From: Procambarus clarkii | Lineage: Eukaryota; Arthropoda; Malacostraca; Decapoda; Cambaridae | DNA: 64,000 nucleotides | Reading direction: 5' to 3' | NCBI RefSeq assembly: GCF_040958095.1 | Contig: NC_091227.1 | Span: 21,736,526 to 21,800,525 of the forward strand | In this document: in pieces, positions 1,041 to 59,433 of the stretch | Layout: each line of letters begins with the position of its first letter | Position numbering within the stretch: the first letter of the stretch is position 1 | The notes under the pieces: generated by a model | Databases searched by the model: none | What the model was told of the DNA's origin: nothing | Seen by the model: the letters and a program-made list of their open reading frames with translations, nothing else | Made by a program: the position numbers and the translations under genes

Positions 1041-1281
1041 GGGAGCCGGTCGGCCGAGCGGACAGCACGCTGGACTTGTGATCCTGTGGTCCCGGGTTCG
1101 ATCCCAGGCGCCGGCGAGAAACAATGGACAGAGTTTCTTTCATCCTATGCCCCTGTTACCTAGCAGTAAAATAGGTACCTGGGTGTTAGTCAGCTGTCAC
1201 GAGCTGCTTTCTGGGGGTGGAGGCCTGGTCGAGGACCGGGCCGCGGGGACACTAAAGCCCCCTCAAGATAACCTCAAGATA
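1041..1281 (+). mobile_element. tRNA-derived SINE, tail type III (core SINE copy 1)
   Basis: The head starts at the GAGCCGGTCGGCCGAGCGG A-box region and carries a B box (GGTTCGATCC near 1095). The central core at 1155-1195 reads gttacctagcagtaaaatag then gtacctgggtgttagtcagc. The 3' part (about 1217-1281) has aggcctggtcgaggaccggg and ends in two copies of acctcaagat-like sequence. That tail matches the 3' end of the LINE at 40795-41398. The tRNA-like head is a Pol III promoter relic; I do not call a functional tRNA. Confidence 0.85.
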
Positions 1282-1640
1282 GGGTTATAAACCCATTGAA
1301 CCGCCTACCCGCCGAAGCCGTGGCTACCACACCTCCTCAGTCCCTTTGCGTATATCGCACCTCTGTTGGGGTTTAAAATACAACTGAAAAAAGATCATCA
1401 GGGCAAATGAGGAGGGAGGGGGACCTTTGACAAGCTGCCGGCTTCCTGTCCTCGTCGAGGCCACCACTGTTAGTGGCCCCTCGGGTAAATTCAGGTAAAT
1501 AAGTGTTTGGGACACGTGAAGGGCTCAGGAGGGGGGCGGGGGCAGGGCGGCAGAAGGATAAGAGGATTAGTCAAGCCAGACTCATTATGGGGCTAACAGG
1601 CAGGGAGAGGAGTAGTGAGTCGGTCAACGAGAAGTGTTGT
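1282..1640. other. No gene seen
   Basis: Unassigned sequence. A phrase near 1420-1500 (ggacctttgacaagctgccg ... aggccaccact) resembles 58954-59010 in the GSE1 intron, so it is probably part of a dispersed element that I cannot name. Confidence 0.35.
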
Positions 1641-1644
1641 AACT

Positions 1645-1815
1645 TGAGGCAGGTTACCTTGCCTTGATTTCTGGGATCAAGTTCCCCGCGGCCCGGTCTC
1701 TTAACCAGGCCTCCTGCTTGCTGGACTGGTCAATCAGGCTGTTGGACGCGACTGCTCGCGGTGAATATGAATCACAGCCTGGTTGATTAGGTATCGTTTA
1801 GAGGTGTTTACACAG
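1645..1815 (-). mobile_element. LINE family III 3'-end fragment
   Basis: On the minus strand this reads as the family III 3' end: cctggttgatt, the agccgcgtccaacagcctg-like phrase, then aggcctggtt and the GC-rich ccgggccgcgggg motif. The best copy of this end is at 41270-41395. The fragment is diverged and has no coding part left. Confidence 0.65.
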
Positions 1816-2039
1816 TTCTCTCTTAAACCAGCCCGACCTCGCATACAAAGATCCAAGCTCGTTAATCCAGCCGCCAAACCCCCCGTTTATGAATGAAAAG
1901 CGGTTTTACACACGACTCACAACTGACGTCCGAACACTTCCGGAACAAATGCTTCGTTCACGTCCTCTGTTCGAACCACAACGCTATAAATGCTTCACCC
2001 ACGAACTTCAAATACAAATAATCGCCAACAGCACACAAC

Positions 2040-2186
2040 ACCTAACCTAACCTAACCTAACCTAACCTACGCCTAACCTAACCTAACCTACGCCTAACCT
2101 AACCTAACCTAACCTAACCTACGCCTAACCTAACCTAACCTAACCTAACCTAACCTAACCTACGCCTAACCTAACCTACGCCTAAC
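2040..2186 (-). repeat. Interstitial (TTAGG)n array
   Basis: CCTAA pentamers on the + strand, interrupted about every 15-40 bp by a TACG variant. TTAGG is the standard arthropod telomere repeat, but this array is flanked by unique-looking sequence of element M1. The second copy of that element (near 50960) has only a few degenerate pentamers at the same place. Confidence 0.9.
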
Positions 2187-2280
2187 TATATATAAAATGT
2201 TTATGAATAATGTTTATGTTTAATTTATATATGAAAACAAACCAAATTTTAACACACAATATGTTAAAATTGATGAATGC

Positions 2281-2380
2281 GTCTAGGGAGGACGGCCGCT
2301 GCTTTAACCAGCCTAGTGTGAGGACGGATTGTCTGGGGAGGACGGCCGCTGCTTTAACCAGCCTAGTGTGAGGACGGGTT
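2281..2380. repeat. 50-bp direct duplication at the right end of M1
   Basis: Two nearly identical 50-bp units (2281-2330 and 2331-2380) contain ggaggacggccgctgcttta and end in the aggacgg element terminus. This is an early stage of terminal repeat expansion comparable to the array at 47.7 kb. Confidence 0.75.
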
Positions 2381-2381
2381 G

Positions 2382-3125: not shown

Positions 3126-3230
3126 GTCATCCTCTAACTCTAGTTAGAGGATGACTCTGTCTGACTGTCAGTCAGTGTGACTAATGACTGACTTTGTCAG
3201 TCCTCTATGACTGTCAGTCATAGAGGACTG
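3126..3230. repeat. Two adjacent strong hairpins
   Basis: Positions 3126-3155 are a perfect inverted repeat with 14-bp arms (GTCATCCTCTAACT and its complement) and a 2-nt centre. Positions 3198-3230 form a second one (CAGTCCTCTATGACT and its complement) with a 3-nt centre. Both arm sets share the word CCTCTA and the sequence between is built from tgactgtcagtca-like words, so they may have arisen together. Confidence 0.8.
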
Positions 3231-3800: not shown

Positions 3801-3864
3801 AGTCTGTATTCCAAGAGCTAAAGTGACTGATGTGTATTTACTATTTATTTGGACTATTTGTATC

Positions 3865-3953
3865 TGCGGAATCGAGCTATTAGCTCTTGGGCCCCGCCTT
3901 TCTAACCAATTTATATTTTTCCTCTATTATGTCTACTACATATATTTCTCTCT

Positions 3954-4046
<93 letters not shown>

Positions 4047-4207
4047 AAGCAGCCCGTACCAGCTGTCAAACTCCCAGGTACCTATTTACTGCTAGGTATA
4101 CAGGTGCATCAGGATGAAAGAAACTCTTCCTATTTTTTTTGCAATCATCGGGGATCGAACCCTAGGGTTACGAGTCCAGAGCGCTGTCCACTCAGCTATC
4201 AGGTCCC
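3865..4207 (-). mobile_element. Core SINE, tail type I, with an internal (AC)n
   Basis: On the minus strand the order is as follows. First comes a tRNA-like head (GGGACCTGATAGCTGAGTGG, B box GGTTCGATCC). Next is the core (cctagcagtaaataggtacc tgggagtt), then gggctgcttcctgtgtgtg running into a 125-bp GT tract. It ends with gaaaggcggggcccaagagc and a CTCGATTCCGCAGA-like end. That end matches the 3' UTR of the LINEs at 4.3 and 10.7 kb (gaaaggcgggatccaagagt). The (AC)n at 3957-4084 on the + strand thus lies inside the SINE. Confidence 0.75.
3957..4084. repeat. (CA)n microsatellite
   Basis: About 63 uninterrupted CA dinucleotides, lying between the core and the LINE-like tail of the SINE on the minus strand. 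Confidence 0.98.
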
Positions 4208-4212
4208 AGAAA

Positions 4213-4270
4213 TGTGTGTGTGTGGAGGGGGGGAGGAGGGAGGCGGGGGCAGGTGATGGAGTGTGTGTGT
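4213..4270. repeat. Left flank repeat of LINE copy A
   Basis: A short GT run, a gga/ggg-rich stretch ending aggtgatggagtg, then another GT run. Almost the same 50-55 bp lie on the other side of the LINE at 5221-5281 (cgggtgatggagag). The LINE therefore sits between two copies of a compound GT/G-rich repeat. Confidence 0.75.
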
Positions 4271-5167
4271 ACTCACCTATATGTACTCACCTATATGTGC
4301 TTGCAGGATCGAGCATTGACTCTTGGATCCCGCCTTTCTAGCTATCGGTTGTTTACAGCAATGACTCCTGTCCCATTTCCCTATCATACCTAGTTTTAAA
4401 AGTATGAATAGTATTTGCTTCCACAACCTGTTCCCCAAGTGCATTCCATTTTTCTACTACTCTCACGCTAAAAGAAAACTTCCTAACATCTCTGTGACTC
4501 ATCTGAGTTTCCAGTTTCCACCCATGTCCCCTCGTTCTGTTATTATTACGTGTGAACATTTCATCTATTTCCACTTTGTCAATTCCCCTGAGTATTTTAT
4601 ATGTCCCTATCATATCTCCTCTCTCCCTTCTTTTCTCTAGTGTCGTAAGGTTCAGTTCCTTCAGCCGCTCTTCATATCCCATCCCTCGTAGCTCTGGGAC
4701 AAGCCTCGTCGCAAACCTCTGAACCTTCTCCAGTTTCTTTATGTGTTTCTTCAGGTGGGGGCTCCATGATGGCGCGGCATACTCTAAGACGGGTCTCACG
4801 TAGGCAGTGTAAAGCGCCCTAAAAGCTTCCTCATTTAGGTTTCTGAATGAAGTTCTAATTTTCGCCAGTGTAGAGTACGCTGCTGTCGTTATCCTATTTA
4901 TATGTGCCTCAGGAGTTAGATTAGGTGTCACATCCACTCCCAGGTCTCTTTCTCGAAACGTTACAGGTAGGCTGTTCCCCTTCATTGTGTACTGTCCCTT
5001 TGGTCTCCTGTCACCTGATCCCATTTCCATAACTTTACATTTACTGGTGTTAAACTCCAGTAGCCATTTCCCTGACCATCTCTGCAGCCTGTTTAAGTCC
5101 TCTTGGAGGATCCTACAATCCTCGTCTGTCACAACTCTTCTCATTAATTTTGCGTCATCTGCAATCA

Positions 5168-5169
<2 letters not shown>
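4271..5169 (-). mobile_element. LINE family I, copy A: 5'-truncated RT C-terminal part
   Basis: An open frame without stops runs on the minus strand from about 5169 down to 4353. It begins inside the reverse-transcriptase catalytic box (ADDAKLMRRVVTDED, the FADD-type motif) and continues with WLLEFNTSKCKVM, the LNRITTAAYSTLAKIRTSFR-like thumb region and YVRPVLEYAAPSWSP. It ends in YDREMGQESLL. The 3' UTR (4271-4352) contains gaaaggcgggatccaagagt in sense and ends in two tataggtgagtaca repeats. It differs from copy B by only a few residues, so both are young. The palm domain upstream of the catalytic box and the endonuclease are missing. The break abuts (GT)n at 5171. Confidence 0.9.

Positions 5170-5170
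<1 letters not shown>

Positions 5171-5233
<63 letters not shown>
5171..5233. repeat. (GT)n microsatellite at the 5' junction of LINE A
   Basis: About 31 GT repeats start directly where the LINE sequence breaks off. Confidence 0.97.
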
Positions 5234-5234
<1 letters not shown>

Positions 5235-5263
5235 AGGGGGGAGGCTGGGGCGGGTGATGGAGA

Positions 5264-9404: not shown

Positions 9405-9495
<91 letters not shown>

Positions 9496-9515
9496 CGCAC
9501 ACACACACACACACA
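9405..9515. repeat. (CA)n microsatellite at the 5' junction of LINE B
   Basis: CA repeats with a few CG variants run directly into the first base of the LINE reading frame at 9516. Confidence 0.97.
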
Positions 9516-10755
9516 TGCCTAACAAACCTTTTAGAATTCTATGATAAAGTAACAAGGATAAGGCAGGACAGAGAAGGCTGGGCAGACTGCATATTTCTTG
9601 ACTGCCAAAAGGCCTTTGATACGGTACCGCACATGAGACTGCTATACAAACTTGAGAGGCAGGCAGGAGTAAGCGGAAAGGCCCTAGTATGGGTGAAGAA
9701 CTACCTAACAGGAAGGAGCCAGAGGGTAATGGTAAGGGGCGAAAAGTCGGACTGGCGAACAGTAACAAGTGGAGTACCTCAAGGATCGGTGCTGGGACCA
9801 ATCCTCTTTCTAATTTACGTAAATGATATGTTTACAGGAGTGGAATCATACATGTCAATGTTTGCAGATGACGCAAAATTAATGAGAAGAGTTGTGACAG
9901 ACGAGGATTGTAGGATCCTCCAAGAGGACTTACACAGGCTGCAGAGATGGTCAGAGAAATGGCTACTGGAGTTTAACACCAGTAAATGTAAAGTTATGGA
10001 AATGGGATCAGGCGACAGGAGACCAAAGGGACAGTACACAATGAAGGGGAACAGCCTACCTGTAACGATTCGAGAAAGAGACCTGGGAGTGGATGTGACA
10101 CCCAATCTAACTCCTGAGGCACATATAAATAGGATAACGACAGCAGCGTACTCTACACTGGCGAAAATTAGAACTTCATTCAGAAACCTAAATGAGGAAG
10201 CTTTTAGGGCGCTTTACACTGCCTACGTGAGACCCGTCTTAGAGTATGCCGCGCCATCATGGAGCCCCCACCTGAAGAAACACATAAAGAAACTGGAGAA
10301 GGTTCAGAGGTTTGCGACAAGGCTTGTCCCAGAGCTACGAGGGATGGGATATGAAGAGCGGCTGAAGGAACTGAACCTTACGACACTAGAGAAAAGAAGG
10401 GAGAGAGGAGATATGATAGGGACATATAAAATACTCAGGGGAATTGACAAAGTGGAAATAGATCAAATGTTCACACGTAATAATAACAGAACGAGGGGAC
10501 ATGGGTGGAAACTGGAAACTCAGATGAGTCACAGAGATGTTAGGAAGTTTTCTTTTAGCGTGAGAGTAGTAGAAAAATGGAATGCACTTGGGGAACAGGT
10601 TGTGGAAGCAAATACTATTCATACTTTTAAAACTAGGTATGATAGGGAAATGGGACAGGAGTCATTGCTGTAAACAACCGATAGCTAGAAAGGCGGGATC
10701 CAAGAGTCAATGCTCGATCCTGCAAGCACATATAGGTGAGTACATATAGGTGAGT

Positions 10756-10757
<2 letters not shown>
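9516..10757 (+). mobile_element. LINE family I, copy B: open reverse transcriptase, 5'-truncated
   Basis: A single frame is open from 9516 to the stop at 10671-10673 (385 codons). In order it has [33 protein letters not shown] (first catalytic Asp region), SGVPQGSVLGPILFLIYVND, SMFADDAKLMRRVV (catalytic FADD box), WLLEFNTSKC, the thumb, YVRPVLEYAAPSWSP, and a C-terminus rich in basic and aromatic residues ending GQESLL. The 3' UTR holds gaaaggcgggatccaagagt and ends in two tataggtgagtaca repeats that pass into (CA)n. The N-terminal ORF2 part with the endonuclease and all of ORF1 are absent. By motif style it belongs to the CR1/jockey/R1-like non-LTR group; a clade assignment needs a tree. Confidence 0.92.

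Positions 10758-11059
<302 letters not shown>

Positions 11060-14870: not shown

Positions 14871-14951
<81 letters not shown>
14868..14951. repeat. (GT)n microsatellite at the 3' end of LINE C
   Basis: About 40 GT repeats joined to the gctcacctagttgtact tail repeat of the minus-strand LINE. Confidence 0.97.
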
Positions 14952-14953
<2 letters not shown>

Positions 14954-15201
14954 CACCTAGTTGTACTACTCACCTAGTTGTGCTTGCGGGGGTTGAGCTC
15001 TGGCTCTTTGGTCCCGCCTCTCAACTGTCAATCAACTGGTGTACAGGTTCCTGAGCCTACTGGGCTCTTATTATATCTACACTTGAAACTGTGTATGGAG
15101 TCAGCCTCCACCACATCACTGCCTAATGCATTCCATCTGTTAGCTACTCTGACACTGAAAAAATTCTTTCTACTGTCTCTGTGGCTCATTTGGGTACTCA
15201 G

Positions 15202-15202
<1 letters not shown>
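14951..15202 (-). mobile_element. LINE family II, copy C: 3'-end fragment
   Basis: The minus strand contains the last coding part (QMSHRDSRKNFFSVRVANRW, NALGSDVVEADSIHSFKCRY) and the 3' UTR with ttgagaggcgggaccaaaga, gctcaacccccgcaa and two actaggtgagtac-like repeats. It breaks off at ctgagtacc next to (GT)n at 15203. Confidence 0.88.

Positions 15203-15273
<71 letters not shown>
15203..15273. repeat. (GT)n microsatellite at the 5' junction of LINE C
   Basis: About 35 GT repeats directly at the truncation point of the LINE. Confidence 0.97.

Positions 15274-16873: not shown

Positions 16874-16911
<38 letters not shown>
16874..16911. repeat. (GT)n microsatellite at the 3' end of LINE D
   Basis: About 19 GT repeats joined to tactcacctagttgtactca of the LINE tail. 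Confidence 0.96.
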
Positions 16912-16914
<3 letters not shown>

Positions 16915-17667
16915 CACCTAGTTGTACTCACCTAGTTGTGTTTGCGGGGGTTGAGCTCTGGCTCTTTGGTCCCGCCTCTCAACCGTCAATCAACAGGTGT
17001 ACAGATTCCTGAGCCTATTGGGCTCTGTCATATCTACACTTGAAACTGTGTATGGAGTCAGCCTCCACCACATCACTTCCTAATGCATTCCATTTGTCAA
17101 CCACTCTGACACTAAAAAAGTTCTTTCTAATATCTCTGTGGCTCATTTGGGCACTCAGTTTCCACCTGTGTCCCCTTGTGCGTGTTCCCCTTGTGTTAAA
17201 TAGCCTGTCTTTATCTACCCTATCAATCCCCTTCAGAATCTTGAATGTGGTGATCATGTCCCCCCTAACTCTTCTGTCTTCCAGCGAAGTGAGGTTTAAT
17301 TCCCGTAGTCTCTCCTCGTAGCTCATACCTCTCAGCTCGGGTACTAGTCTGGTGGCAAACCTTTGAACCTTTTCCAGTTTAGTCTTATCCTTGACTAGAT
17401 ATGGACTCCATGCTGGGGCTGCATACTCCAGGATTGGCCTGACATATGTGGTATACAAAGTTCTGAATGATTCTTTACACAAGTTTCTGAATGCCGTTCG
17501 TATGTTGGCCAGCCTGGCATATGCCGCTGATGTTATCCGCTTGATATGGGCTGCAGGAGACAGGTCTGGCGTGATATCAACCCCCAAGTCTTTTTCCTTC
17601 TCTGACTCCTGAAGAATTTCCTCTCCCAGATGATACCTTGTATCTGGCCTCCTGCTCCCTACACCTA

Positions 17668-17670
<3 letters not shown>
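16910..17670 (-). mobile_element. LINE family II, copy D: RT C-terminal part
   Basis: The minus-strand frame is open from 17668 to 17015. It starts IGVGSRRPDTRYHLGEEIL and continues through KDLGVDITPDLSPAAHIKRI, RTLYTTYVRPILEYAAPAWS and RGDMITTFKILKGID, ending HSFKCRYDRAQ. It is nearly identical to copy E. The 3' UTR has the conserved ttgagaggcgggaccaaaga and ends in two actaggtgagtac repeats. The catalytic domain is missing; the break abuts (GT)n at 17671. Confidence 0.92.

Positions 17671-17726
<56 letters not shown>
17671..17726. repeat. (GT)n microsatellite at the 5' junction of LINE D
   Basis: 28 GT repeats directly following the truncation point. Confidence 0.97.
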
Positions 17727-17997: not shown

Positions 17998-18078
17998 ACG
18001 GGCTGCTTCCTGGGGGTGGAGGCCTGGTCGAGGACCGGGCCGCGGGGACACTAAAGCCCCGAAATCATCTCAAGATAT
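17998..18078 (+). mobile_element. Core SINE tail fragment (type III tail)
   Basis: Contains gggctgcttcctgggggtgg, aggcctggtcgaggaccggg and the actaaagccccgaaatcatc end. The head and core are missing. Confidence 0.8.
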
Positions 18079-18126
18079 ACCTGTATCTCTGGTCTATAGA
18101 TATGGTCCTTGTTCTTCCCTTGGATT

Positions 18127-18376
18127 GGAGCCGGTCGGCCGAGCGGACAGCACGCTGGACTTGTGATCCTGTGGTCCTGCGTTCGATCCCAGGCGCCGGC
18201 GAGAAACAATGGGCAGAGTTTCTTTCACCCTATGCCCCTATTACCTAGCAGTAAAATAGGTACCTGGGTGTTAGTCAGCTGTCCCGGGCTGCTTCCTGAG
18301 GGTGGAGACCTGGTCGACGACGGGGCCGCGGGGACACTAAAAGCCCCGAAATCATCTCAAGATAACCTCAAGATAT
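18127..18376 (+). mobile_element. Core SINE, tail type III, copy 2
   Basis: Full-length structure like 1041-1281: GAGCCGGTCGGCCGAGCGG head, B box GTTCGATCCC, core ttacctagcagtaaaatagg, tail aggtggagacctggtcgacg and a double acctcaagat end. It lies 50 bp after a fragment of the same family. Confidence 0.88.
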
Positions 18377-18949: not shown

Positions 18950-19256
18950 GTCTCAAAGCTCTCAAAATGTACTCTCTGAAAAGGACACGAGAAAGATATC
19001 AAATACATGGGAGATACTGGAGGGCCAGGTCCCAAATTTACACAGTAGAATAACAACATACTGGAGCGAAAGGTAAGGAAGGAAATGCAGAATAGAACCA
19101 GTGAGAAGTAGAGGTGCCATAGGCACAATCAGAGAACACTGATTGTCTGAGAACACTGTCTGAACATCAGAGGTCCACAGTTGTTCAACACCCTCCCAGC
19201 AAGCATTAGAAATATTACCGGAACAAAGGTGAATGTCCTCAAGAGGCACTTATACA
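18950..19256 (+). mobile_element. LINE relic, family IV
   Basis: The order agatactggagggccaggtc, acagtagaataacaacatac, agaggtgccataggcac, atcagaggtccacagttgtt, caacaccctcccagca matches the RT C-terminal layout of the family III LINE at 41 kb. There the protein reads VEGLVPNLHTEITAHETRRH and DIRGPRLFNTLPLHIRGI. Frames are broken. Related pieces lie at 55.1-55.5 kb. Confidence 0.65.
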
Positions 19257-19258
<2 letters not shown>

Positions 19259-19289
<31 letters not shown>

Positions 19290-19470
19290 AGATATATACA
19301 AGAGTTGTTACATTCTTGTACAGCCACTAGTACGCGTAGCGTTTCGGGCAGGTCCCTGGAATACGATCCCCGCCGCGAAGAATCGTTAGTTCTTGCAAGA
19401 AGTACCGGACCAACCAGGCTGTAGTGGATGTGTGACCCACGCCCGTCACACATCACTAGTCTGCTCCTCG
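19259..19470 (-). mobile_element. LINE 3' end with poly-A, tail type IV
   Basis: On the minus strand: a cctggttggtccggtactt phrase, then ggacctgcccgaaacgctac, gtactagtggctgtacaaga, atgtaacaactcttgtatat, and a run of about 30 A (T on plus, 19259-19288). The ctagtggct...acaagaatgtaa end is shared with the SINE at 59186-59433, so this is probably the LINE (or a sister) that supplies that tail. Confidence 0.6.
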
Positions 19471-21214: not shown

Positions 21215-23417
21215 CTGTGTTGGTGAGGCCCTGAGTGTGTTGGTGAGGCCCTGAGTGTGTTGGTGAGGCCCTGAGTGTGTTGGTGAGGCCCTGAGTGTGT
21301 TGGTGAGGCCCCGAGTGTGTTGGTGAGGCCCCGAGTGTGTTGGTGAGGCCCTGAGTGTGCTGGTGAGGCCCTGAGTGTGCTGGTGAGGCCCCTGAGTGTA
21401 CTGGTGAGGCCCCGAGTGTGTTGGTGAGGCCCTGAGTGTGTTGGTGGGGCCCTGAGTGTGTTGGTGGGGCCCCGAGTGTGTTGGTGAGGCCCTGAGTGTG
21501 TTGGTGAGGGCCCTGAGTGTGTTGGTGAGGCCCTGAGTGTGTTGGTGGGGCCCTGAGTGTGTTGGTGGGGCCCCGAGTGTGTAGGTGAGGCCCTGAGTGT
21601 GTTGGTGAGGGCCCTGAGTGTGTTGGTGAGGCCCTGAGTGTGTTGGTGGGGCCCTGAGTGTGTTGGTGGGGCCCTGAGTGTGTTGGTGGGGCCCCGAGTG
21701 TGTTGGTGAGGCCCTGAGTGTGTTGGTGAGGGCCCTGAGTGTGTTGGTGAGGCCCTGAGTGTGTTGGTGGGGCCCTGAGTGTGTTGGTGGGGCCCCGAGT
21801 GTGTAGGTGAGGCCCTGAGTGTGTTGGTGAGGGCCCTGAGTGTGTTGGTGAGGCCCTGAGTGTGTTGGTGGGGCCCTGAGTGTGTTGGTGGGGCCCCGAG
21901 TGTGTTGGTGAGGCCCTGAGTGTGCTGGTGAGGCCCTGAGTGTGCTGGTGAGGCCCCTGAGTGTACTGGTGAGGCCCCGAGTGTGTTGGTGAGGCCCTGA
22001 GTGTGCTGGTGAGGCCCCGAGTGTGTTGGTGAGGCCCTGAGTGTGCTGGTGAGGCCCCGAGTGTGTTGGTGAGGCCCTGAGTGTGCTGGTGAGGCCCCGA
22101 GTGTGTTGGTGAGGCCCTGAGTGTGCTGGTGAGGCCCCGAGTGTGTTGGTGAGGCCCTGAGTGTGCTGGTGAGGCCCCTGAGTGTGTTGGTGAGGCCCTG
22201 AGTTTGTTGGTGAGGCCCTGAGTGTGTTGGTGAGGCCCTGAGTGTGTTGGTGAGGCCCTGAGTGTGTTGGTGAGGCCCTGAGTGTGTTGGTGAGGCCCTG
22301 AGTGTGTTGGTGAGGCCCTGAGTGTGTTGGTGAGGCCCTGAGTGTGTTGGTGAGGCCCTGAGTGTGTTGGTGAGGCCCTGAGTGTGTTGGTGAGGCCCTG
22401 AGTGTGTTGGTGAGGCCCCTGAGTGTGTTGGTGAGGCCCCTGAGTGTGTTGGTGAGGCCCCTGAGTGTGTTGGTGAGGCCCTGAGTGTGTTGGTGAGGCC
22501 CCTGAGTGTGTTGGTGAGGCCCCTGAGTGTGTTGGTGAGGCCCCTGAGTGTGTTGGTGAGGCCCCTGAGTGTGTTGGTTAGGTCCTGAGTGTGTTGGTGA
22601 GGTCCTGAGTGTGTTGGTGAGGCCCTGAGTGTGTTGGTGAGGCCCCTGAGTGTGTTGGTGAGGCCCTGAGTGTGTTGGTGAGGCCCCTGAGTGTGTTGGT
22701 GAGGCCCCTGAGTGTGTTGGTGAGGCCCCTGAGTGTGTTGGTTAGGTCCTGAGTGTGTTGGTGAGGCCCCTGAGTGTGTTGGTGAGGCCCTGAGTGTGTT
22801 GGTGAGGCCCTGAGTGTGTTGGTGAGGCCCTGAGTGTGTTGGTGAGGCCCCTGAGTGTGTTGGTGAGGCCCTGAGTGTGTTGGTGAGGCCCTGAGTGTGT
22901 TGGTGAGGCCCCTGAGTGTGTTGGTGAGGCCCCTGAGTGTGTTGGTGAGGCCCTGAGTGTGTTGGTGAGGCCCCTGAGTGTGTTGGTGAGGCCCCTGAGT
23001 GTGTTGGTGAGGCCCCTGAGTGTGTTGGTTAGGTCCTGCGTGTGTTGGTGAGGCCCTGAGTGTGTTGGTGAGGCCCTGAGTGTGTTGGTGAGGCCCTAAG
23101 TGTGTCGGTGAGGCCCTGAGTGTGTCGATGAGGCCCTGAGTGTGTGGGGGAGGCCCTGAGTGTGTTGGTGAGGCCCTGAGTGTGTTGGTGAGGTCCCTGA
23201 GTGTGTTGGTGGGGCCCTGAGTGTGTTGGTGAGGTCCTGAGTGTGTTGGTGAGGCCCTGAGTGTGTTGGTGAGGCCCTGAGTGTGTTGGTGAGGCCCCTG
23301 AGTGTGTTGGTGAGGCCCTGAGTGTGTTGGTGAGGCCCTGAGTGTGTTGGTGAGGCCCTGAGTGTGTTGGTGAGGCCCTGAGTGTGTTGGTGAGGCCCTG
23401 AGTGTGTGGGGGAGGTC
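21215..23417. repeat. 18-bp minisatellite, 2.2 kb, roughly 120 copies, with higher-order structure
   Basis: The basic unit is tgttggtgaggccctgag (18 bp) with 19-bp variants having an extra C or G. Groups of variants (ggggccctg, ggggccccg, gaggccctg, gagggccctg) recur together three to four times between 21437 and 21910. A two-unit alternation (tgtt...ctgag / tgct...ccgag) occurs at 21970-22170. The 333-residue minus-strand open frame over it is a product of the 18-bp period. Confidence 0.97.
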
Positions 23418-27880: not shown

Positions 27881-28716
27881 TTTTTTATTATTCAATACCA
27901 TCAAGTTGATATCTGGCAACGCTATCATCGTTACCTAGCCTCAGAGCCATACATTTGTCAGCATTAAAACTGCCTCTGTCAATCATTCGTCTATTTCAAA
28001 AGACTCTAGATAGTTTTGAAGCAATGTTGAACCTTCCGAATGTACAGAGTGTCCCAGAATTAGCTGTTTCTATGAAATTGCAAGAATTATAAAAAAAGGT
28101 CGTGTTTATTGATGTTTATCATTTTTAATGTATGTTATAAATGTAAACATTTTTCAATTGTTTCATCCGTTTTCAGAACTCTAATAATGAATACGGCAAA
28201 ATAAAGAACCTTTTTACAACCTCCCTTATGAACGGGTTACGATATAATGAAATCCTAGAAGGATCTGCAAAGAAATTTTACAGAATCGCTCCTACAGACA
28301 CAGCGAGTCTTGGGAACAAATTTAAGAACTGGATGGGTACAAAATGTGGTTCACGATGCTAAAGTTAGATATGAAATGTGTAGGGATTCAGGCGGAGCAC
28401 ATGTTGATTGTTCTCTGTTAAGATTGACTTATGATTTATAAATCTACCTGTTTTTTTGTATCAAAATTAGGTAATAACATGAAATTATGAGCTTGAAACT
28501 GTTGACATTTGTATGCATTACATTTGACCTTTTAAATATGTGTCCAATGATTTCCCCAGTACCTGTATTCCTCAATTTACAGCAGTGATAGGCCTAGGCT
28601 CTTAAAAATGTTATTTCAGTGCTAGACCTATAGGTGGCATTCTTCCGTGAATATTCGTGTTACAGTTTGATTGTTAGCCCTTGAATGACACATTATTAAT
28701 GTAACTGGTATACCAC
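27881..28716. other. No gene seen
   Basis: AT-rich. The phrase at 28190-28360 (translating in part to SLGNKFKNWMGTK) could be the ghost of a coding element, but I recognise no family. Confidence 0.35.
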
Positions 28717-28726
28717 TGTGTGTACT
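28717..28726. repeat. Short GT run at the 3' end of LINE E
   Basis: Only a few GT dinucleotides (tgtgtgt) precede the tail repeat. This is the weakest 3' (AC)n junction of the five LINE copies. Confidence 0.7.
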
Positions 28727-29973
28727 CACCTAGTTGTACTCACCTAGTTGTGTTTGCGGGGGTTGAGCTCTGGCTCTTTGGTCCCGCCTCTCAACCGTCA
28801 ATCAACAGGTGTACAGATTCCTGAGCCTATCGGGCTCTGTCATATCTACACTTGAAACTGTGTATGGAGTCAGCCTCCACCACATCACTTCCTAATGCAT
28901 TCCATTTGTCAACCACTCTGACACTAAAAAAGTTCATTCTAATATCTCTGTGGCTCATTTGGGCACTCAGTTTCCACCTGTGTCCCCTTGTGCGTGTTCC
29001 CCTTGTGTTAAATAGACTGTCTTTATCTACCCTATCAATCCCCTTCAGAATCTTGAATGTGGTGATCATGTCCCCCCTAACTCTTCTGTCTTCCAGCGAA
29101 GTGAGGTTTAATTCCCGTAGTCTCTCCTCGTAGCTCATACCTCTCAGCTCGGGTACTAGTCTGGTGGCAAACCTTTGAACCTTTTCCAGTTTAGTCTTAT
29201 CCTTGACTAGATATGGACTCCATGCTGGGGCTGCATACTCCAGGATTGGCCTGACATATGTGGTATACAAAGTTTTGAATGATTCTTTACACAAGTTTCT
29301 GAATGCCGTTCGTATGTTGGCCAGCCTGGCATATGCCGCTGATGTTATCCGCTTGATATGTGCTGCAGGAGACAGGTCTGGCGTGATATCAACCCCCAAG
29401 TCTTTTTCCTTCTCTGACTCCTGAAGAATTTCCTCTCCCAGATGATACCTTGTATCTGGCCTCCTGCTCCCTACACCTATCTTCATTACATTACATTTGG
29501 TTGGGTTAAACTCTAACAACCATTTGTTCGACCATTCCTTCAGCTTGTCTAGGTCTTCTTGAAGCCTCAAACAGTCCTCTTCTGTTTTAATCCTTCTCAT
29601 AATTTTAGCATCGTCCGCAAACATTGAGAGAAATGAATCGATACCCTCCGGGAGATCATTTACATATATCAGAAACAAGATAGGACCGAGTACAGAGCCC
29701 TGTGGGACTCCACTGGCGACTTCACGCCAATCGGAGGTCTCACCCCTCACCGTAACTCTCTGCTTCCTATTGCTTAGATACTCCCTTATCCACTGGAGCA
29801 CCTTACCAGCTACACCTGCCTGTCTCTCCAGCTTATGTACCAGCCTCTTATGCGGTACTGTGTCAAAGGCTTTCCGACAATCCAAGAAAATGCAGTCCGC
29901 CCAGCCCTCTCTTTCTTGCTTAATCTGTGTCACCTGATCGTAGAATTCTATCAAGCCTGTAAGGCAAGATTTA

Positions 29974-29980
<7 letters not shown>
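28722..29980 (-). mobile_element. LINE family II, copy E: most complete RT
   Basis: The minus-strand frame is open from 29980 to 28827, beginning EGKSCLTGLIEFYDQVTQIK. Motifs in order: FLDCRKAFDTVPHKRLVHKL (first catalytic Asp), SGVPQGSVLGPILFLIYVND, FLSMFADDAKIMRRI (catalytic box), WLLEFNPTKCNVMKIGVGSR, SPAAHIKRITSAAYARLANI, YVRPILEYAAPAWSP, and a C-terminus ending KCRYDRAR. The 3' UTR (28722-28826) has the conserved GAGC/ccgcc hairpin and two actaggtgagtac repeats. The endonuclease part is missing. No internal stop, so the copy is young. Confidence 0.93.

Positions 29981-30052
<72 letters not shown>
29981..30052. repeat. (GT)n microsatellite at the 5' junction of LINE E
   Basis: About 36 GT repeats begin right where the LINE sequence ends. 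Confidence 0.97.
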
Positions 30053-32892: not shown

Positions 32893-33940
32893 ACTCACCA
32901 AGCCACACCCCGCCACCCTCACTGAGCCACACCCCGCCACCCTCACTGAGCCACACCCCGCCACCCTCACTGAGCCACACCCCGCCGCCTTCACCAAGCC
33001 ACACCCCGCCGCCTTCACCAAGCCACACCCCGCCGCCTTCACCAAGCCACACCCCGCCGCCTTCACCAAGCCACACCCCGCCGCCTTCACCAAGCCACAC
33101 CCCGCCGCCTTCGCCAAGCCACACCCCGCCGCCTTCACCAAGCCACACCCCGCCGCCTTCACCAAGCCACACCCCGCCACCTTCACCAAGCCACACCCCG
33201 CCGCCCTCACCAAGCCACACCCCGCCACCCTCACCAAGCCACACCCCGCCGCCCTCACCAAGCCACACCCCGCCACCCTCACCAAGCCACACCCCGCCAC
33301 CCTCACCAAGCCACACCCCGCCACCCTCACCGAGCCACCCCTCACCAAGCCACACCCCGCCACCCTCACCAAGCCACACCCCGCCGCCTTCACCAAGCCA
33401 CACCCCGCCGCCTTCACCAAGCCACACCCCGCCACCCTCACCAAGCCACACCCCGCCACCCTCACCGAGCCACCCCTCGCCACCCTCACCAAGCCACACA
33501 CCGCCACCCTCACCAAGCCACACCTCGCCACCCTCACCAAGCCACACACCGCCACCCTCACCAAGCCACACCCCGCCACCCTCACCAAGCCACACCCCGC
33601 CACCCTCACCAAGCCACACCCCGCCACCCTCACCAAGCCTTACCCCGCCACCCTCACCAAGCCACACCTCGCCACCCTCACCAAGCCACACACCACCACC
33701 CTCACCAAGCCACACCCCGCCACCCTCACCAAGCCACACCCCGCCACCCTCACCAAGCCTTACCCCGCCACCCTCACCAAGCCACACCCCGCCACCCCTC
33801 ACCGAGCCACACCCCGCCCCCCTCACAAAGCCACACCCCGCCCCCCTCACAAAGCCACACCCAGGCACCTTCACCAAGCCACACCCCGCCACCCCTCACC
33901 AAGCCACACCCCACCCCCTTCACAAAGCCACACCCAGGCA
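32893..33940. repeat. 24-bp minisatellite, about 43 copies
   Basis: Unit caccaagccacaccccgcca (first 20 bases) with gccttc/ccctc variants. The + strand is almost free of G; the minus strand is G-rich (ggcggggtgtggc) and stays open for 351 codons. The plus frame (PPPSPSHT repeats) also stays open. I treat both as artefacts of an 8-codon unit, not as genes. Confidence 0.95.
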
Positions 33941-34067
33941 CTCTCATCCCCTGGATCTTATCGAGTTATGGTGTGATCATACTGGGAAGAAGCCAGGTGG
34001 GGCGGTGCTCATCTCTGCCACTCTTGTTTTTCCTTCCCCCTGGTGAGTGGCGTCTCCATGGTTACCG

Positions 34068-35118
34068 TCACCTCCATCACTGGCACCTCCATCACTGGCA
34101 CCTCCATCATTGCTACCACCATCACTGTCACCACCATCACTGGTACCACCATCACTGCCACCACCATCACTGCCACCACCATCACTGCCACCACCATCAC
34201 AGCCACCACCATCACTGCCACCACCATCACTGCCACCACCATCACAGCCACCACCATCACTGCCACCACCATCACTGCCACCACCATCACTGCTACCACC
34301 ATCACTGCTACCACCATCACTGGCACCTCCATCACTACCACCACCATCACTGCCACCACCATCACAGCCACCACCATCACAGCCACCACCATCACAGCCA
34401 CCACCATCACAGCCACCACCATCACTGTCACCACCATCACTGTCACCACCATCACAGCCACCACCATCACTGTCACCACCATCACAGCCACCACCATCAC
34501 AGCCACCACCATCACTGTCACCACCATCACAGCCACCACCATCACAGCCATCACCATCACAGCCACCACCATCACTGTCAACACCATCACTGTCACCACC
34601 ATCACTGTCACCACCATCACTGTCACCACCATCACTGTCACCACCATCACTGTCACCACCATCACTGTCACCACCATCACAGCCACCACCATCACAGCCA
34701 CCACCATCACTGTCACCACCATCACTGTCACCACCATCACAGCCACCACCATGACAGCCACCACCATCACTGTCACCACCATCACTGTCACCACCATCAC
34801 AGCCACCACCATCACTGTCACCACCACCATCACAGCCACCACCATCACTGCCACCACCATCACAGCCACCACCATCACAGCCACCACCATCACAGCCACC
34901 ACCATCACTGCCACCACCATCACTGCCACCACCATCACTGCCACCACCATCACAGCCACCACCATCACAGCCACCACCATCACAGCCACCACCATCACAG
35001 CCACCACCATCACAGCCACCACCATCACTGCCACCACCATCACAGCCACCACCATCACAGCCACCACCATCACAGCTACCACCATCACAGCTACAACCAT
35101 CACAGCCACCACCCCTTT
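34068..35118. repeat. 18-bp minisatellite (CCACCATCAC), about 58 copies
   Basis: Unit accaccatcactgccacc with acagcc, actgtc and actgct variants. Five frames remain open for over 230 codons (for example HHHC/HHHS repeats on plus, MVVAVMVV and GGCDGGGS on minus), which is expected for an 18-bp period free of stops. No start context or conserved flank supports a gene. Confidence 0.95.
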
Positions 35119-38992: not shown

Positions 38993-39281
38993 GGGAGCCG
39001 GTCGGCCGAGCGGACAGAACACTGGACTTGTGATCCTGTGGTCCCGGGTTCGCTCCCAGGCGCCGGTGAGAAACAAATGGGCAGAGCTTCTTTCACCCTA
39101 TGCCCCTGTTACCTAGCAGTAAAATAGGTACCTGGGTGTTAGTCAGCTGTCACGGGCTGCTTCCTGGTGTGTGTGGTGTGGAGAGAAAACAAAAATTAGT
39201 TAGTAAACAGTTGATTGACAATTGAGAGGCGGGCCGAAAGAGCAAAGCTCAACCCCCGCAAACACAACTAGGTGAATATAT
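38993..39281 (+). mobile_element. Core SINE with LINE family II tail (type II)
   Basis: Same head (GAGCCGGTCGGCCGAGCGG) and core (ttacctagcagtaaaatagg) as the type III copies. After gggctgcttcctgg the sequence switches to gtgtgtggtgtgg, then gttgattgacaattgagagg, cgggccgaaagagcaaagct, caacccccgcaaacacaact and aggtga. From gttgattgac onward it matches the 3' UTR of LINE copies C, D and E. The SINE therefore uses the 3' end of that LINE. Confidence 0.88.
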
Positions 39282-40415: not shown

Positions 40416-40686
40416 GGGGCCCTGTAGACTGGTGGATAGCGCGCAGGACTCGTAATTCTGTGGCGCGGGTTCGATTCCCGCACGAGGCAGAAACAAATGG
40501 GCAAAGTTTCTTTCACCCTAAGTGCCCCTGTTACCTAGCAGTAAATAGGTACCTGGGAGTTAGTCAGCTGTCACGGGCTGCTTCCTGGGGTGTGTGTGTG
40601 GTGTGGAAAAAAAAAAGTAGTTAGTAAACAGTTGAGAGGCGGGCCGAAAGAGCAAAAGCTCAACCCCCGCAAAAACACAACTAGTA
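40416..40686 (+). mobile_element. Core SINE with a different tRNA head, tail type II
   Basis: Head ggggccctgtagactggtgg, atagcgcgcaggactcgtaa, B box GGTTCGATTCC; this is not the head of the other copies. The core (ttacctagcagtaaataggt) and tail (ttgagaggcgggccgaaaga, gctcaacccccgcaaaaaca, caactagta) are those of the type II copy at 38993. The phrase cacttggacacgcccaca stands on both sides and may be the target duplication, although it is also the minisatellite unit. Confidence 0.88.
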
Positions 40687-40794: not shown

Positions 40795-41398
40795 ACTTCA
40801 AAACGCTAGTACTCTCTAGAGTGGAGTACGGCTGCACAATGACAGCCCCTTCCAAGCTGGAGAAATTTCTGACCTGGAGACCGTGCAGAGATCCTTTACT
40901 GCTAAAATCCACTCCGTAAAACATATAAACTACTGAGACCGACTAAAGAGCCTAAATCTGTATTCTCTTGAGCACAGGCGGGAGAGATACATAATAATCT
41001 ATACGTGGAAAATAGTAGAGGGGCTGGTCCCAAACCTGCACACAGAAATAACAGCACATGAGACCAGAAGGCATGGCAGGATGTGCAGAATACCCCCGTT
41101 GAAGAGCAGAGGTGCAACAGGTACTCTGAGAGAGAACTCTATCGACATCAGAGGCCCGAGACTGTTCAACACGCTTCCACTACACATAAGGGGCATAACT
41201 GGCCGACCCCTCACACTGTTCAAGAGAGAACTTGACAAACACCTCCAAAGGATACCTGATCAACCAACCTGTGACTCATACGTCAGGCTGCGAGCAGCCG
41301 CGTCCAACAGCCTGGTTGATCAGTCCAGCAACCAGGAGGCCTGGTCGACGACCGGGCCGCGGGGACGCTAAGCCCCGGAAGCACCTCAAGGTAAGGTA
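40795..41398 (+). mobile_element. LINE family III: RT C-terminus and 3' UTR
   Basis: The translation in shifting frames gives LEYGCTMTAPSKLEKF-like sequence, then KSLNLYSLEHRRERYIIIYT, VEGLVPNLHTEITAHETRRH, GRMCRIPPLKSRGATGTLRE, RGPRLFNTLPLHIRGITGRP and FKRELDKHLQRIPDQPTCDS. These are followed by the tail cagcctggttgatcagtcca, ggaggcctggtcgacgaccg, gggccgcggggacgctaagc and acctcaaggtaaggtaa. The 3' half is intact. This 3' end is the source-type sequence for the type III SINE tails. Confidence 0.82.
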
Positions 41399-49480: not shown

Positions 49481-50120
49481 CGATAGGCAATGATGGGAGA
49501 GAAAACAAGTGAAAACAAAACAATGGAACCAAACACAGGGGACTATAGAGGAACTAGGGAGTACACCAAGTCAGCAGGGTAGCTGAGGGCCAATTATAAA
49601 ACGACATAGTGCTAAGAAGCTAAGAAACAAAGAGTGCTGTTGTATAGCCATATTAGGAGATCAAGAACAATAGGAGACCATGTAATCAAGGAGAGGAGAC
49701 AAGGAGGAAGTCTTTAAGAAATTCGAAAACAAAAATGGTTAAGAGAAACTTGACTAGAGTTTCAAGAGTCTTCATAAAGGCACTGTGGACTCAAGGTTGC
49801 GAGACGAAAAGTGGTTAGAAGAAACAGTAGGTAAAATAGTAATGACTATTGATGATATACAGGACCAGATTTAATATCACAGTGGCTGCTGAACGAGGCA
49901 GCAGAAGTGGTTTGGCATTTGCTAAATAAACTTATCAGCACAACACTTGACACAGGTCCCCTTCCCCCCCCCCCCCCAGAAATTCGGAAAAAGACGTGAA
50001 GTTCCAATATATAAACAGAGGGCAGATATGAGGTACTAAATTATAGACCCGTGCCACTGACAACTATTGTGTAGTGTTGCAAAAAGTAGTCAGGATGAGA
50101 GGAGCTGCGACTGCGACTGG

Positions 50121-50370
50121 GGGAGCCGGTCGGCCGAGCGGACAGCACACTGGACTTGTGATCCTGTGGTCCCAGGTTCGATCCCGGGCGCCGGCGAGAA
50201 ACAATGGGCAGAGTTTCTTTCACCCCATGCCCCTGTTACCTAGCAGTAAAATAGGTACCTGGGTGTTAGTCAGCTGTCACGGGCTGCTTCCTGGGGGTGG
50301 AGGCCTGGTCGAGGACCGGGCCGCAGGGACACTAAAGCCCCGAAATCATCTCAAGATAACCTCAAGATGA
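50121..50370 (+). mobile_element. Core SINE, tail type III, copy 3
   Basis: gggagccggtcggccgagcg head, B box GGTTCGATCC, core ttacctagcagtaaaatagg, tail aggcctggtcgaggaccggg and a double acctcaagat end. Intact length, little diverged from 18127 and 1041. Confidence 0.9.
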
Positions 50371-55240: not shown

Positions 55241-55255
55241 GAAGCATTTATTTTG

Positions 55256-56050: not shown

Positions 56051-56051
56051 T

Positions 56052-56238: not shown

Positions 56239-56454
56239 AATCATCATCATACACCATCAGTATCATTATTGGCACCACCACTGCCAAGGCCATCCACCAT
56301 TATGGACACCAAAACCATCATATTAAATTGTACAAAAGAAGCTTGGTCCCACAAAGTACTGTCTTTCTCGTCCTCGTTGAAGCTACAGCAATACAATCAG
56401 TTTTGTGTCACTGTGAGTCATCATTCGTTGATAACACCATAATTACGCTGATTT

Positions 56455-57060
56455 GGTGATAGGTAATTCAATGGGTTTATAACCCTATGGGTGAAAAAGC
56501 ATCTGTTCTCAGTTCTAAATTGTGGCTTGATCAGCTTGAAACCGTTGCTCATCGTTTGTTACATGTGACCTTTTATAGAAGTTGTCTGGATCAGTGTCCT
56601 CCAAATTGTTCAGTATTTTAAGTTTCAATGAGATCAGCCCTGTCAAGTCTAGTTTACAGTGTTAACCCCATAACTGTTCATGGCATGAGAGTTGACTTGG
56701 CTCTGGAATGTGTTTTGTTGCCCGGTGTTGAACTTTTTCCAAAGCAGCTATGTTTTTCTGAAGATATAATCTTCATGCTTAGATAAAATAATCCAAGTGG
56801 GAATGCATCAGAGATTTATACAGTTGAATAACTACCTTCTTTTCCTTGAAGTCAATGGTTCACTTGATTATTCTTAGGGTTTGGTTAGTTTTTTTTTTTT
56901 ACTGTAGCTCCCACTTGTTGTGAAAGTTTCAGTGAATGGTGGATTCTGACTCCAAGGTCCTTTTTCATCAATCTGCTGCAATGTAATATTAATTTGGTAA
57001 TTGTGACATGCATTGTTATGTCCCACATGCAAGGTCTTGCATTTGTAAGAAAATCCACAG
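56455..57060 (-). mobile_element. Old CR1-like LINE relic
   Basis: Plus-strand phrases ttcaatgggtttataaccct, atgggtgaaaaagcatctgt, tcaatgagatcagccctgtc, ttatacagttgaataactac and tctgactccaaggtcctttt recur in the same order with changes at 62770-63320. The pattern is that of the complement of an RT C-terminal region. Heavily decayed. Confidence 0.6.
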
Positions 57061-58498
57061 AAGGCGTGATGAGGATTCGAACCTATGCGCTGGGTGTTCT
57101 TCTCTCCGTGAGCTTGCAAGTGTGAGAGATCAAGCTAATCAGATGGTAGTTTTCTGCTGAGCTCTTTCTGCCTTTTTTTTTAAATAGATTATGACATTTG
57201 CACATATCCAATCTAGGGGAACTATCCCTTGATCGAAAGATTTTCTGAAAAGGAGTTTCAGTGGTAGGCATAGTGCATCTGCCAGTTCCATCACGAATTT
57301 GGATTGAATTCCGTCCACACCTTAGATTAAGCACCATACACAGATTAAGAACCTGCTGGAAATGCTGTGTGTGTGTTAGTGGCTTTGCAAGACTGTAACA
57401 CTCAAACACCAATGTTATGTAGTCTCACAACCCAATACTGTATACCCAAAATGTATATAAATAAATAAATAAAGTAAACACCTGGGGCTTTTGAGTACAG
57501 TATTTTAGTTTGTCATTGTTCTTCCTGATTGTCATACGTTATGGAAATACAGTACCCCATAATTCGTTCTCTTCACCTCCTTCACACATTTGTGTGGGTA
57601 ATGTGATATTGTCTGATCTCTCGGGTGTGAACACTGATGTAAAGTATTAATTCAATGTCTTTTGTTTTGGTTTTACTACTTATATAAGCCCAGTTTAAGC
57701 AAGTTTTCTTTCATAGTTTCTTTTGGCTGATCTGATTTCCTAGGAGGCTAAATTTAATGCCCTTCTGTATATCTCATAATCTATGTTATTCTTCGTGGAT
57801 TTATACCTTTTCCAGAGGTTCCGCTAAGAAATTTCACCAACAAATGGATATTGTCTGCCAGCAATAAAATACCACCAGTCCCAGAATGTCATTTTTTATT
57901 TTCAGCCAATGAGTCTGATAAACCAGTTAATTTTCAGCCTAAATGAGTTAAGATTATTTTTTTACAAAGTTTTGCATTTACAGTAATTAGAGATACATTA
58001 ATGTGCCCCATCCAATTTTTTATAGTTACATATTTTTCAGTTGGCTGATTAGATAAAATAAATTATACGGTAATAACATTTTCATTTGATGTGTGGTAAA
58101 TGGATGTACAGTATTTTCAAAAGGATGTATGGTAGTCCTAGGTTATTGTTCTGCTTAGCTGTTGTGAACTTTGAAATGCCTTGTTTTTATTCCATTCGCA
58201 ATCAAGCAAAAAAATCCTCATTGTAATGTAACTACAAGCTGTTGATCAGGCACAAAGTTCCAATTATGCTTCCCTCAACCTAACCATTTGCCTTGGCTAT
58301 TGTGCACATATTTCTGTGAGGGATTGTCAAGTACGGTAGACCTACATGTACCTGTACTAGAATTTCTCTATTAATGTTTAGAACTGAAACTACCTATACT
58401 TTCTGTGAATGGCTGAGTACAGTTTTGGTGAGCCCAAGGTGTTCCTAGTTTATTTAGATGATGAAGTTTATTTATGTTTATCTTTTTTTTTTTTGCAG
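57061..58498. other. Probable GSE1-like intron, 3' part
   Basis: 57360-57420 (gtgtgtgttagtggctttgc, aagactgtaac) is a scrap of a type IV SINE/LINE tail. The rest is AT-rich without frames. It ends in a pyrimidine tract and the tttttgcag acceptor at 58498. Confidence 0.5.
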
Positions 58499-58834
58499 GT
58501 GTTGGTGGTAAACCTCCCAGCCTTCCGCCTCACCTTCTACCACCAGGTTCTGCTGCTGCCGCTGCTGTAGCAGCAGCGGCAGCAGCAGCTGGAGTGAGCA
58601 GTGCCAGCAGTGTTAGCAGCAGTAGCTGCAGCAACAGCATTGTCATGAGTAGTGATGGTGTGGCACTAAGTAATAAGGGCGTGAGAACAACTGCTACAGT
58701 GCCACCTCTGGGACTGAGCACATCTCTGGCACCTCTGACAACAACAGCTGGTGCAAGGGCTCCCTCACCTACATCCTCATCTTCCTTTGCAGCAGCACTT
58801 CGATCCCTTGCCAAACAAGCCACAGCTCCCCCTG
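58499..58834 (+). CDS. GSE1: GSE1-like protein, internal exon (N-terminal region)
   Basis: This 336-nt exon lies between a polypyrimidine-AG acceptor (58480-58498) and a G|gttagt donor, both in phase 1, encoding about 112 residues. In order: a Pro-rich start (KPPSLPPHLLPPG), a poly-Ala tract, a Ser-rich tract, RTTATVPPL (58684 on), and SSFAAALRSLAKQA (58780-58821). From memory, vertebrate GSE1 has RTTATV followed by SSFAAALRKLAKQA in the same order, and that pairing is the basis for the call. GSE1 is a nuclear protein reported with the LSD1/CoREST/HDAC1/2 co-repressor machinery. The frame is fixed by the match and by continuity with 60377-60734. The gene start lies on an unseen exon upstream. 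Confidence 0.85.
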
Positions 58835-59185
58835 GTTAGTTGACTATAATTAAATTGTGTACTGTATCTGTGTGCATTTATAGTTTATGCATATTACAGC
58901 AATTCAAAATCCAATTGGAAAAAATCCTCGGTAAAAAAAGGGGGGTGGGGGGGACCTTTAACAAGCTACTGTCGTCCTGCACCTGTCAAGGCCACTAGAT
59001 GGTGCCCTCTCAGGTAAATAAACATAGTGGTAAAATCCATTGTAGATACTATTCCCAAATGTAACCATTATACAGCATTATAGTAGTTTAGTATATTAAG
59101 TGCAAGCTGTACAATATTTTAAGTGAACACATGTTAACTGAATTTGGTACATGTTAATATCATATTATTGAGGAACATTCAATCA
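58835..59185 (+). other. GSE1-like intron, 5' part
   Basis: Intron sequence after the gttagt donor. It contains a poly-G run near 58940 and the dispersed phrase gacctttaacaagctactgt also seen near 1427. Confidence 0.55.
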
Positions 59186-59433
59186 GTCCCTATGGTGCAG
59201 TGGTAAAGCACTCGCCTGGCGCTTCACAAGTGCTTTGGCCTGGATTCGTATCCTTGCCAGGGACAATTGACTGGGTGCCAATTCTTGACTGCAGTCTCTG
59301 TTCACCCAGCAGTGAATGGGTACCTGGTTGTTAAACGATTTGGTGGGTCATAGTCTGGGAAAATTAGGATTAAAGACCTGCCTGAAAAGCTGTGTGCGCT
59401 AGTGGCTTTACAAGAATGTAAGAACTTATATAC
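59186..59433 (+). mobile_element. Core SINE with a third tRNA head, tail type IV
   Basis: Head gtccctatggtgcagtggta, aagcactcgcctggcgcttc, B box GGATTCGTATCC. The core is diverged but recognisable (cacccagcagtgaatgggta, cctggttgtta). The tail gacctgcctgaaaagctgtg, gctagtggctttacaagaat and gtaag matches the LINE 3' end at 19289-19360. It is followed by a short GT run and lies in sense orientation within the GSE1-like intron. Confidence 0.78.

Follow-up and report, generated by a model that had tools for sequence, protein, structure and literature searches.

CORE-SINEs are short interspersed elements (SINEs) that have one core domain in common. According to the accessible part of the closest precedent (PMC3747384), several of them (MIR/Ther-1, Mar-1, HpaI, AFC and UnaSINE) join a tRNA head to tails from different long interspersed elements (LINEs) under one superfamily name; the tails are those of L2, L3, RTE, RSg-1, CiLINE2 and UnaL2, and for eel SINEs the recruitment of the LINE reverse transcriptase (RT) by the tail is experimentally supported. 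Here we describe a family of SINEs in a 64,000-nt stretch of the genome of the decapod Procambarus clarkii (NC_091227.1, positions 21,736,526 to 21,800,525; hereafter "the window"), in which one core is likewise combined with several heads and several LINE tails. Modular SINEs with LINE tails are an already known kind, and the present elements are likened to CORE-SINEs by architecture. Unlike the CORE-SINEs, however, they carry two different tails on the same head within one genome, and the insertion sites that go with the two differ measurably. They very probably constitute a modular tRNA-derived SINE superfamily in which the tail picks the LINE protein and thereby the target, tail II leading to (AC)n microsatellites and tail III to non-AC sites.

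Parts of this arrangement have been described elsewhere. HaSE1-3 of Helicoverpa and PxSE of Plutella have a common head and body with different 3' ends, or a common body and tail with a different head, but no tail-dependent target is reported in the accessible text of these studies (PMC3272025, PMC8010984). The Sauria SINE and its partner LINE Bov-B have the same Tn-TA insertion pattern, except that they do not have the first duplicated base in common, a difference linked to their different 3' repeats, and the accessible part of the source mentions neither a microsatellite target nor a tail swap within one SINE superfamily (PMC13295347). Among LINEs, Mino (R1 clade; PMC3124438) and Togen (NeSL-related; PMC4640811) target AC or (TG)n repeats, but the accessible portions mention no SINE partner, and these LINEs are likened here to LINE II, the LINE bearing tail II, by target. 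In the literature searched, mostly papers outside subscription, we found no SINE superfamily in which a change of target has been reported to depend on the tail. A decapod repeat survey, as far as its accessible part goes, finds SINEs to be rare (0.02-2.54%; PMC10454600).

The first-pass annotation of the window had counted at least seven SINE copies with a common core, and all seven were recovered, at 1041, 18127, 38993, 40416, 50121 and 59186 on the forward strand and at about 4207-3850 on the reverse strand (Table 1). The elements are about 240-370 nt long, and the parent assembly (4.03 Gb, 2,308 contigs) contains 55,326 exact matches to the 20-nt core; they are thus short, dispersed and of very high copy number, like other tRNA-derived SINEs. 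A core pattern with up to three mismatches has 3 matches in the window against 0.01 expected, and misses four GAGCCGG copies that have one additional loop A. The core at 59186 scores 40, 40 and 35 against three other cores, each above all 2,000 shuffles (maximum 33). The core is able to form a 5-6 bp hairpin, for instance at 40534-40553 and 59305-59324, which is included in the lowest-energy fold of copies 50121, 40416 and 3865 and not in that of 1041, 18127, 38993 and 59186; a compensatory change in the 59186 hairpin (one two-sided, T-A to C-G) is only suggestive. No relatives of the core, tail III or the LINE protein were found in the viral contig collection searched, nor of the core in a genome contig collection, and a literature search with six element strings found no paper.

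The heads are tRNA-like, as in tRNA-derived SINEs. The head at 40419-40489 matches RF00005 with 34.1 bits, the sole head above threshold in the window, and ARAGORN at a relaxed threshold makes tRNA-like calls on heads a, b and d, its calls on the decayed head c copy being wrap-around only. Among the window copies, head a is common to 1041, 18127, 38993 and 50121 (90-96% identity, gaps counted) and is 68-72% identical to head b (40416), whereas their cores are 90-94% identical; heads b and c are not clearly separate there (84% ungapped, 71% with gaps).

A genomic sample was drawn from 97 of 100 listed exact-core places, all on one contig (C1), in 88 loci. The count needed TGG after the core, and 12 of the 88 loci gave no match; the loci yielded 89 matches and the window 7, making 96, with none in 30 LINE III loci that were also scanned. 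Head and tail criteria were satisfied by 74 matches, and 22 were dropped, among them copies with odd spacing, missing heads or an unrecognised tail and the window type I SINE, which has 169 nt between core and tail. Once copies with shared flanks had been merged, 52 independent ones remained. In these, with at most the first 200 pairs per comparison, the mean head/core identities between classes are 0.657/0.882 (a-b), 0.640/0.812 (a-c) and 0.642/0.857 (b-c), and those within classes 0.879/0.906 (a), 0.945/0.976 (b) and 0.799/0.820 (c). Since between-class head identity is well under core identity, the heads are, as judged from these sequences, discrete classes, of which c is the most decayed.

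The tails match LINEs of the same window, those of types I and II at scores well outside those of shuffled sequences (200 shuffles per comparison). The type II tails (38993, 40416) match LINEs C, D and E at 88-90% with scores of 78-107 (shuffle maximum 26), the type I tail matches LINEs A and B at 78% over 51 columns with a score of 45 (shuffle maximum 24), and the three type III SINEs match the LINE at 40795 at 81-87% over 61-70 nt. The similarities claimed in the first-pass annotation therefore do not fall to chance, an outcome that it had named as fatal to its reading. Tails I and II, listed there as separate types, turned out to be homologous: the SINE I tail is 75% identical to LINE D, the tails of LINEs A and D are 80% identical, and the proteins of LINEs B and E are 69% identical over 378 aa. 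Given this tail similarity and protein identity, tails I and II with their LINEs are one lineage, and a scheme of four separate tail lineages was rejected. The RT of the tail III LINE is 34% identical to that of LINE E, by which comparison tail III comes from a different LINE than tails I/II. The RVT_1 domain is present in two genomic copies of LINE III (L081, L072), and tail III is carried by all 30 sampled LINE III copies. Both tails I/II and tail III are thus common with an RT-bearing LINE, as in tRNA-derived SINEs. The statement that several LINE machineries are parasitized stands as far as more than one is concerned, two being shown (I/II and III, with RVT_1 in at least one copy each), but overstated their number.

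Since the LINE III open reading frame (ORF) terminates ...NQEAWSTTGPRGR, the first tail III hairpin lies inside the final codons. Folding of LINE and SINE copies gives hairpins in tails II and III that vary somewhat from copy to copy; a MAFFT alignment of tails I/II, in which the inner stem came out misaligned, was set aside for covariation. The change from one tail to another lies in the G-run/(TG)n linker that follows gctgcttcctgg, a motif that type IV lacks.

Heads and tails occur in all four combinations of a and b with II and III. Exact patterns on both strands of the whole assembly gave 660 a-II (head a with tail II), 29,650 a-III, 7,005 b-II and 10,782 b-III matches, and reversed-pattern controls gave 0 for each combination. 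In local sequences on which the patterns were checked, the expected tail was present in 21/21 b-II, 23/23 b-III, 1/1 a-II and 3/3 a-III matches. One head with two tails and one tail with two heads, as previously noted in the window, are accordingly seen genome-wide, and the modular structure of head, core and tail is well supported. Because all four combinations exist, heads and tails have been recombined between lineages. Template switching during reverse transcription may have been the route; the combinations are seen, but no switch event was observed. Core variants mix as well: in the genomic sample, b heads with post-core GAGT carry tails II and III, and those with post-core GTGT carry tail III only.

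The tail correlates with the insertion site and with strand orientation. Among the 52 independent copies, the 60 nt upstream contain an AC run of 10 nt or more in 11/14 b-II, 0/20 b-III, 0/8 a-III, 0/7 c-III, 1/2 a-II and 0/1 d-IV copies (b-II vs b-III, Fisher P = 1.3e-6). Downstream AC shows the same pattern (b-II 9/14, b-III 0/20), and GT runs upstream are absent from both (0/14 and 0/20). When the TGG requirement was dropped (113 matches, 81 kept, 51 independent), upstream AC was found in 10/13 b-II, 0/20 b-III, 0/8 c-III, 0/8 a-III, 0/1 a-II and 0/1 d-IV copies (b-II vs b-III, P = 3.1e-6). Genome-wide AC counts were restricted to forward-strand matches, reverse counts being inflated by several matches per copy. 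On this strand, (AC)4 lies upstream of 2,650 of 3,645 b-II copies against 70 of 5,347 b-III copies (about 73% vs 1%, odds ratio about 201). The corresponding count for a-II is 196 of 324, and the opposite-strand repeat lies upstream of 77 of the 3,645 b-II copies. For background, AC occurs in 128 of 6,392 80-nt intervals of the window.

The partner LINEs show the same difference. The truncated 5' end of each of the five LINEs A-E abuts an (AC)n array 56-110 bp in length, the sense strand running along AC, and in four of them an AC run of 10 nt or more also lies 3'; like the known microsatellite-targeting LINEs, they are inserted in AC/TG repeats. The first-pass annotation was silent both on these arrays and on a target that follows the tail. 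An exact 36-mer of LINE II occurs 31,294 times genome-wide, and in 20 copies fetched by place (one of which, L127, has no recognisable tail) an AC run of at least 10 nt lies 3' in 11. After by-eye grouping of look-alike flanks this becomes 9/13, one six-copy group lying in an ACAT-unit tract. Because no more than 11 of these 20 copies have 3' AC, the insertion of LINE II in AC/TG repeats is a preference, not a strict specificity. For LINE III (exact 33-mer, 10,473 occurrences), such a run is found in 0/30 sampled copies, look-alike loci not being collapsed.

We propose the following course of events. The tRNA-like head (a, b, c or d) would presumably drive RNA polymerase III transcription of the common core, and the tail, which is a LINE 3' end that was captured and has a stem-loop plus short repeats at its terminus, would presumably recruit the reverse transcriptase of that LINE. 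Tail III, common with a LINE without downstream AC (30 sampled copies), would lead to sites without AC, and tail II, common with the (AC)n-array LINE, would lead either head to (AC)n sites with the sense strand along the AC strand. There the tail-selected LINE protein would nick the GT-rich strand, and the ...GTAC(AC) end of the RNA would prime on the exposed GTGT 3' end. Site choice may reside in the LINE endonuclease or in the annealing of the ...ACAC RNA end to the GTGT primer; the data are compatible with both. It is likely that the tail of about 70 nt by itself redirects insertion, a head and core that bear II instead of III being brought by a different LINE to (AC)n microsatellites and no longer to dispersed sites, and that the superfamily is in this sense a natural target-swap system.

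Several points weigh against a target chosen through the tail. Neither type II SINE of the window (38993, 40416) adjoins an AC array, and on the forward strand no upstream AC run is present in about 27% of the b-II and 40% of the a-II copies. The genome-wide counts are of exact patterns and are not de-duplicated, segmental copies being known to exist. For a-II, just one or two copies were inspected and the tail pattern was checked on one local copy; for a-III, the AC rate comes from the sample only. Target-site duplications are unreadable inside AC arrays and are hidden by satellites too (flanks inspected by eye). The LINE II endonuclease was not seen in the copies obtained, none of which is full-length. 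Lastly, in two LINE II copies the homology to LINE E ends inside the fetched stretch, and neither has AC there; one of them (L122) looks rearranged, and the 5' ends of the remaining 18 lie beyond the fetched stretch.

The AC arrays might instead have grown after insertion, tail II copies having inserted at short ACAC stretches that slippage later extended into arrays on either side. The tail II 3' end is indeed already ...TACAC, the 3' side of LINE E is just ACACAC, and microsatellite expansion beside elements is described for maize TAFTA in the accessible part of PMC5907723. However, the 5' array lies outside the element, is missing beside tail III copies with the same head (0/20), and is as long as 56-110 bp at LINEs A-E. 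We consider such growth an unlikely source of the association; the initial choice of site would in any case remain tail-dependent. It is also doubtful that the target is set by base-pairing and not by the LINE endonuclease, the SINE RNA annealing to AC/GT DNA through a (UG)n linker or its ...ACAC 3' end. Type II SINEs do have a (TG)n linker after the core and a 3' end complementary to (GT)n, but LINEs A-E lie at AC arrays with no (TG)n seen between ORF end and tail in the displayed stretch, which counts against the linker and not against 3'-end annealing, and the linker is present in copies 38993 and 40416, beside which there is no AC array. There is little chance that the type II copies in AC arrays derive mostly from one segmental duplication, or from a master copy that carried AC along by 5' transduction: the sample does contain many duplicated loci (74 copies reduced to 52), but AC is still present in 11/14 b-II copies after collapsing, the few bases between array and head vary among copies, and head a with tail II behaves alike (196/324). 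That the classes reflect decay of one SINE with no exchange, a possibility that the first-pass annotation had itself raised and that the poor separation of the window b and c heads (84% ungapped) might recall, is hardly credible and already contradicted by the mean a-b identity of 0.657 for heads vs 0.882 for cores, by the discrete head and tail classes of the genomic sample and by the four head-tail combinations, whose copies number from hundreds to tens of thousands.

For type IV, the stretch 19259-19470 had been taken as the matching LINE end. This could not be upheld: the stretch is another type IV SINE, 5'-truncated, and 19289-19391 on the reverse strand aligns to the 3' part of a genomic SINE with a d-like head, core and tail IV (L079) with 92 identities, 2 mismatches and 4 gap columns, through which the proposed type IV LINE was rejected. 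This reverse-strand SINE interrupts a forward-strand LINE at 19000-19258 that resumes at about 19392; the interrupted LINE is related to LINE III (69% over 133 nt). A tail-IV-like stretch follows a LINE-like ORF in another locus (L084), with look-alikes in L087, L095 and L096, and these are only candidates for the type IV partner LINE; one LINE-like ORF tested upstream of the L084 match had no Pfam match.

Table 1. SINE copies, LINEs and adjoining (AC)n arrays in the window
Feature	Position	Strand	Remarks
SINE, head a + core + tail III	1041..1281	+	blastn 93% to 50121 copy; head-class comparison
SINE, head c + core + ~88-nt (TG)n linker + tail I	3850..4207	-	12-nt AC run in 5' flank
LINE A, tail I partner	4262..5169	-	5'-truncated at (AC)n array; ORF piece without Pfam match
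(AC)n array 5' of LINE A	5170..5233	-	
(AC)n array 5' of LINE B	9406..9515	+	
LINE B, tail I partner	9516..10755	+	RVT_1 (E 1.9e-22); (AC)n both sides
(AC)n array 3' of LINE B	10756..11056	+	
(AC)n array 3' of LINE C	14875..14950	-	
LINE C 3' end, tail II	14951..15202	-	(AC)n both sides
(AC)n array 5' of LINE C	15203..15272	-	
(AC)n array 3' of LINE D	16874..16911	-	
LINE D, tail II	16912..17669	-	(AC)n both sides; ORF piece without Pfam match
(AC)n array 5' of LINE D	17670..17725	-	
Type III SINE, 5'-truncated	17998..18082	+	extra copy beyond the seven first reported
SINE, head a + core + tail III	18126..18376	+	
Type IV SINE, 5'-truncated	19259..19391	-	poly(A) ~30 nt; inserted in + strand LINE
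LINE E, tail II	28710..29980	-	RVT_1 (E 9.6e-25); (AC)n 5', just ACACAC 3'
(AC)n array 5' of LINE E	29981..30052	-	
SINE, head a + a-type core + tail II	38993..39276	+	recombinant combination; adjoins 43-bp satellite; without AC array
SINE, head b (tRNA-like) + core + tail II	40416..40684	+	RF00005 and ARAGORN; adjoins 16-bp minisatellite; without AC array
Core 20-mer	40534..40553	+	hairpin TACCTA-loop-TAGGTA possible
LINE III, C-terminal coding part + tail III	40795..41398	+	RVT_1 in genomic copy L081
SINE, head a + core + tail III	50120..50369	+	ARAGORN tRNA-Thr-like at 50125-50196
SINE, head d + diverged core + tail IV	59186..59432	+	core score above 2,000 shuffles

Some sampled loci hold odd copies. 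A tandem SINE, in which head a, core and tail III are followed by another core and another tail III, is present with the same flank at five places of contig C1 (L018, L026, L027, L030 and L034), apparently by duplication. Two SINEs with a-like heads (L008, L042) have an inverted part-copy of tail II ahead of tail II, forming a fold-back, and in L033 and L036 internal LINE II coding sequence directly follows a SINE tail II and a few bases. Type III SINEs in L022 (both strands) and L054 lie within tracts rich in ACCTTACC or its complement; these tracts resemble the terminal repeat of tail III and may reflect a second target habit. The repeats of the window seem decapod-like. Long minisatellites are numerous (21216-23415, 32894-33946, 34069-35113 and others), and their ORFs seem to arise from the repeat period and not to be genes. 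An (ACCTA)n array of 147 bp at 2040-2186 is of the arthropod telomere type, AACCT/TTAGG being the arthropod telomere motif in the accessible part of PMC3124438.

A SINE is generally expected to go where the endonuclease of its partner LINE directs it. Since thousands of copies here agree in head and differ in tail, this expectation becomes testable with an internal control. The present family suggests that a SINE could enter a probably harmless niche, the microsatellites, by swapping one small module.

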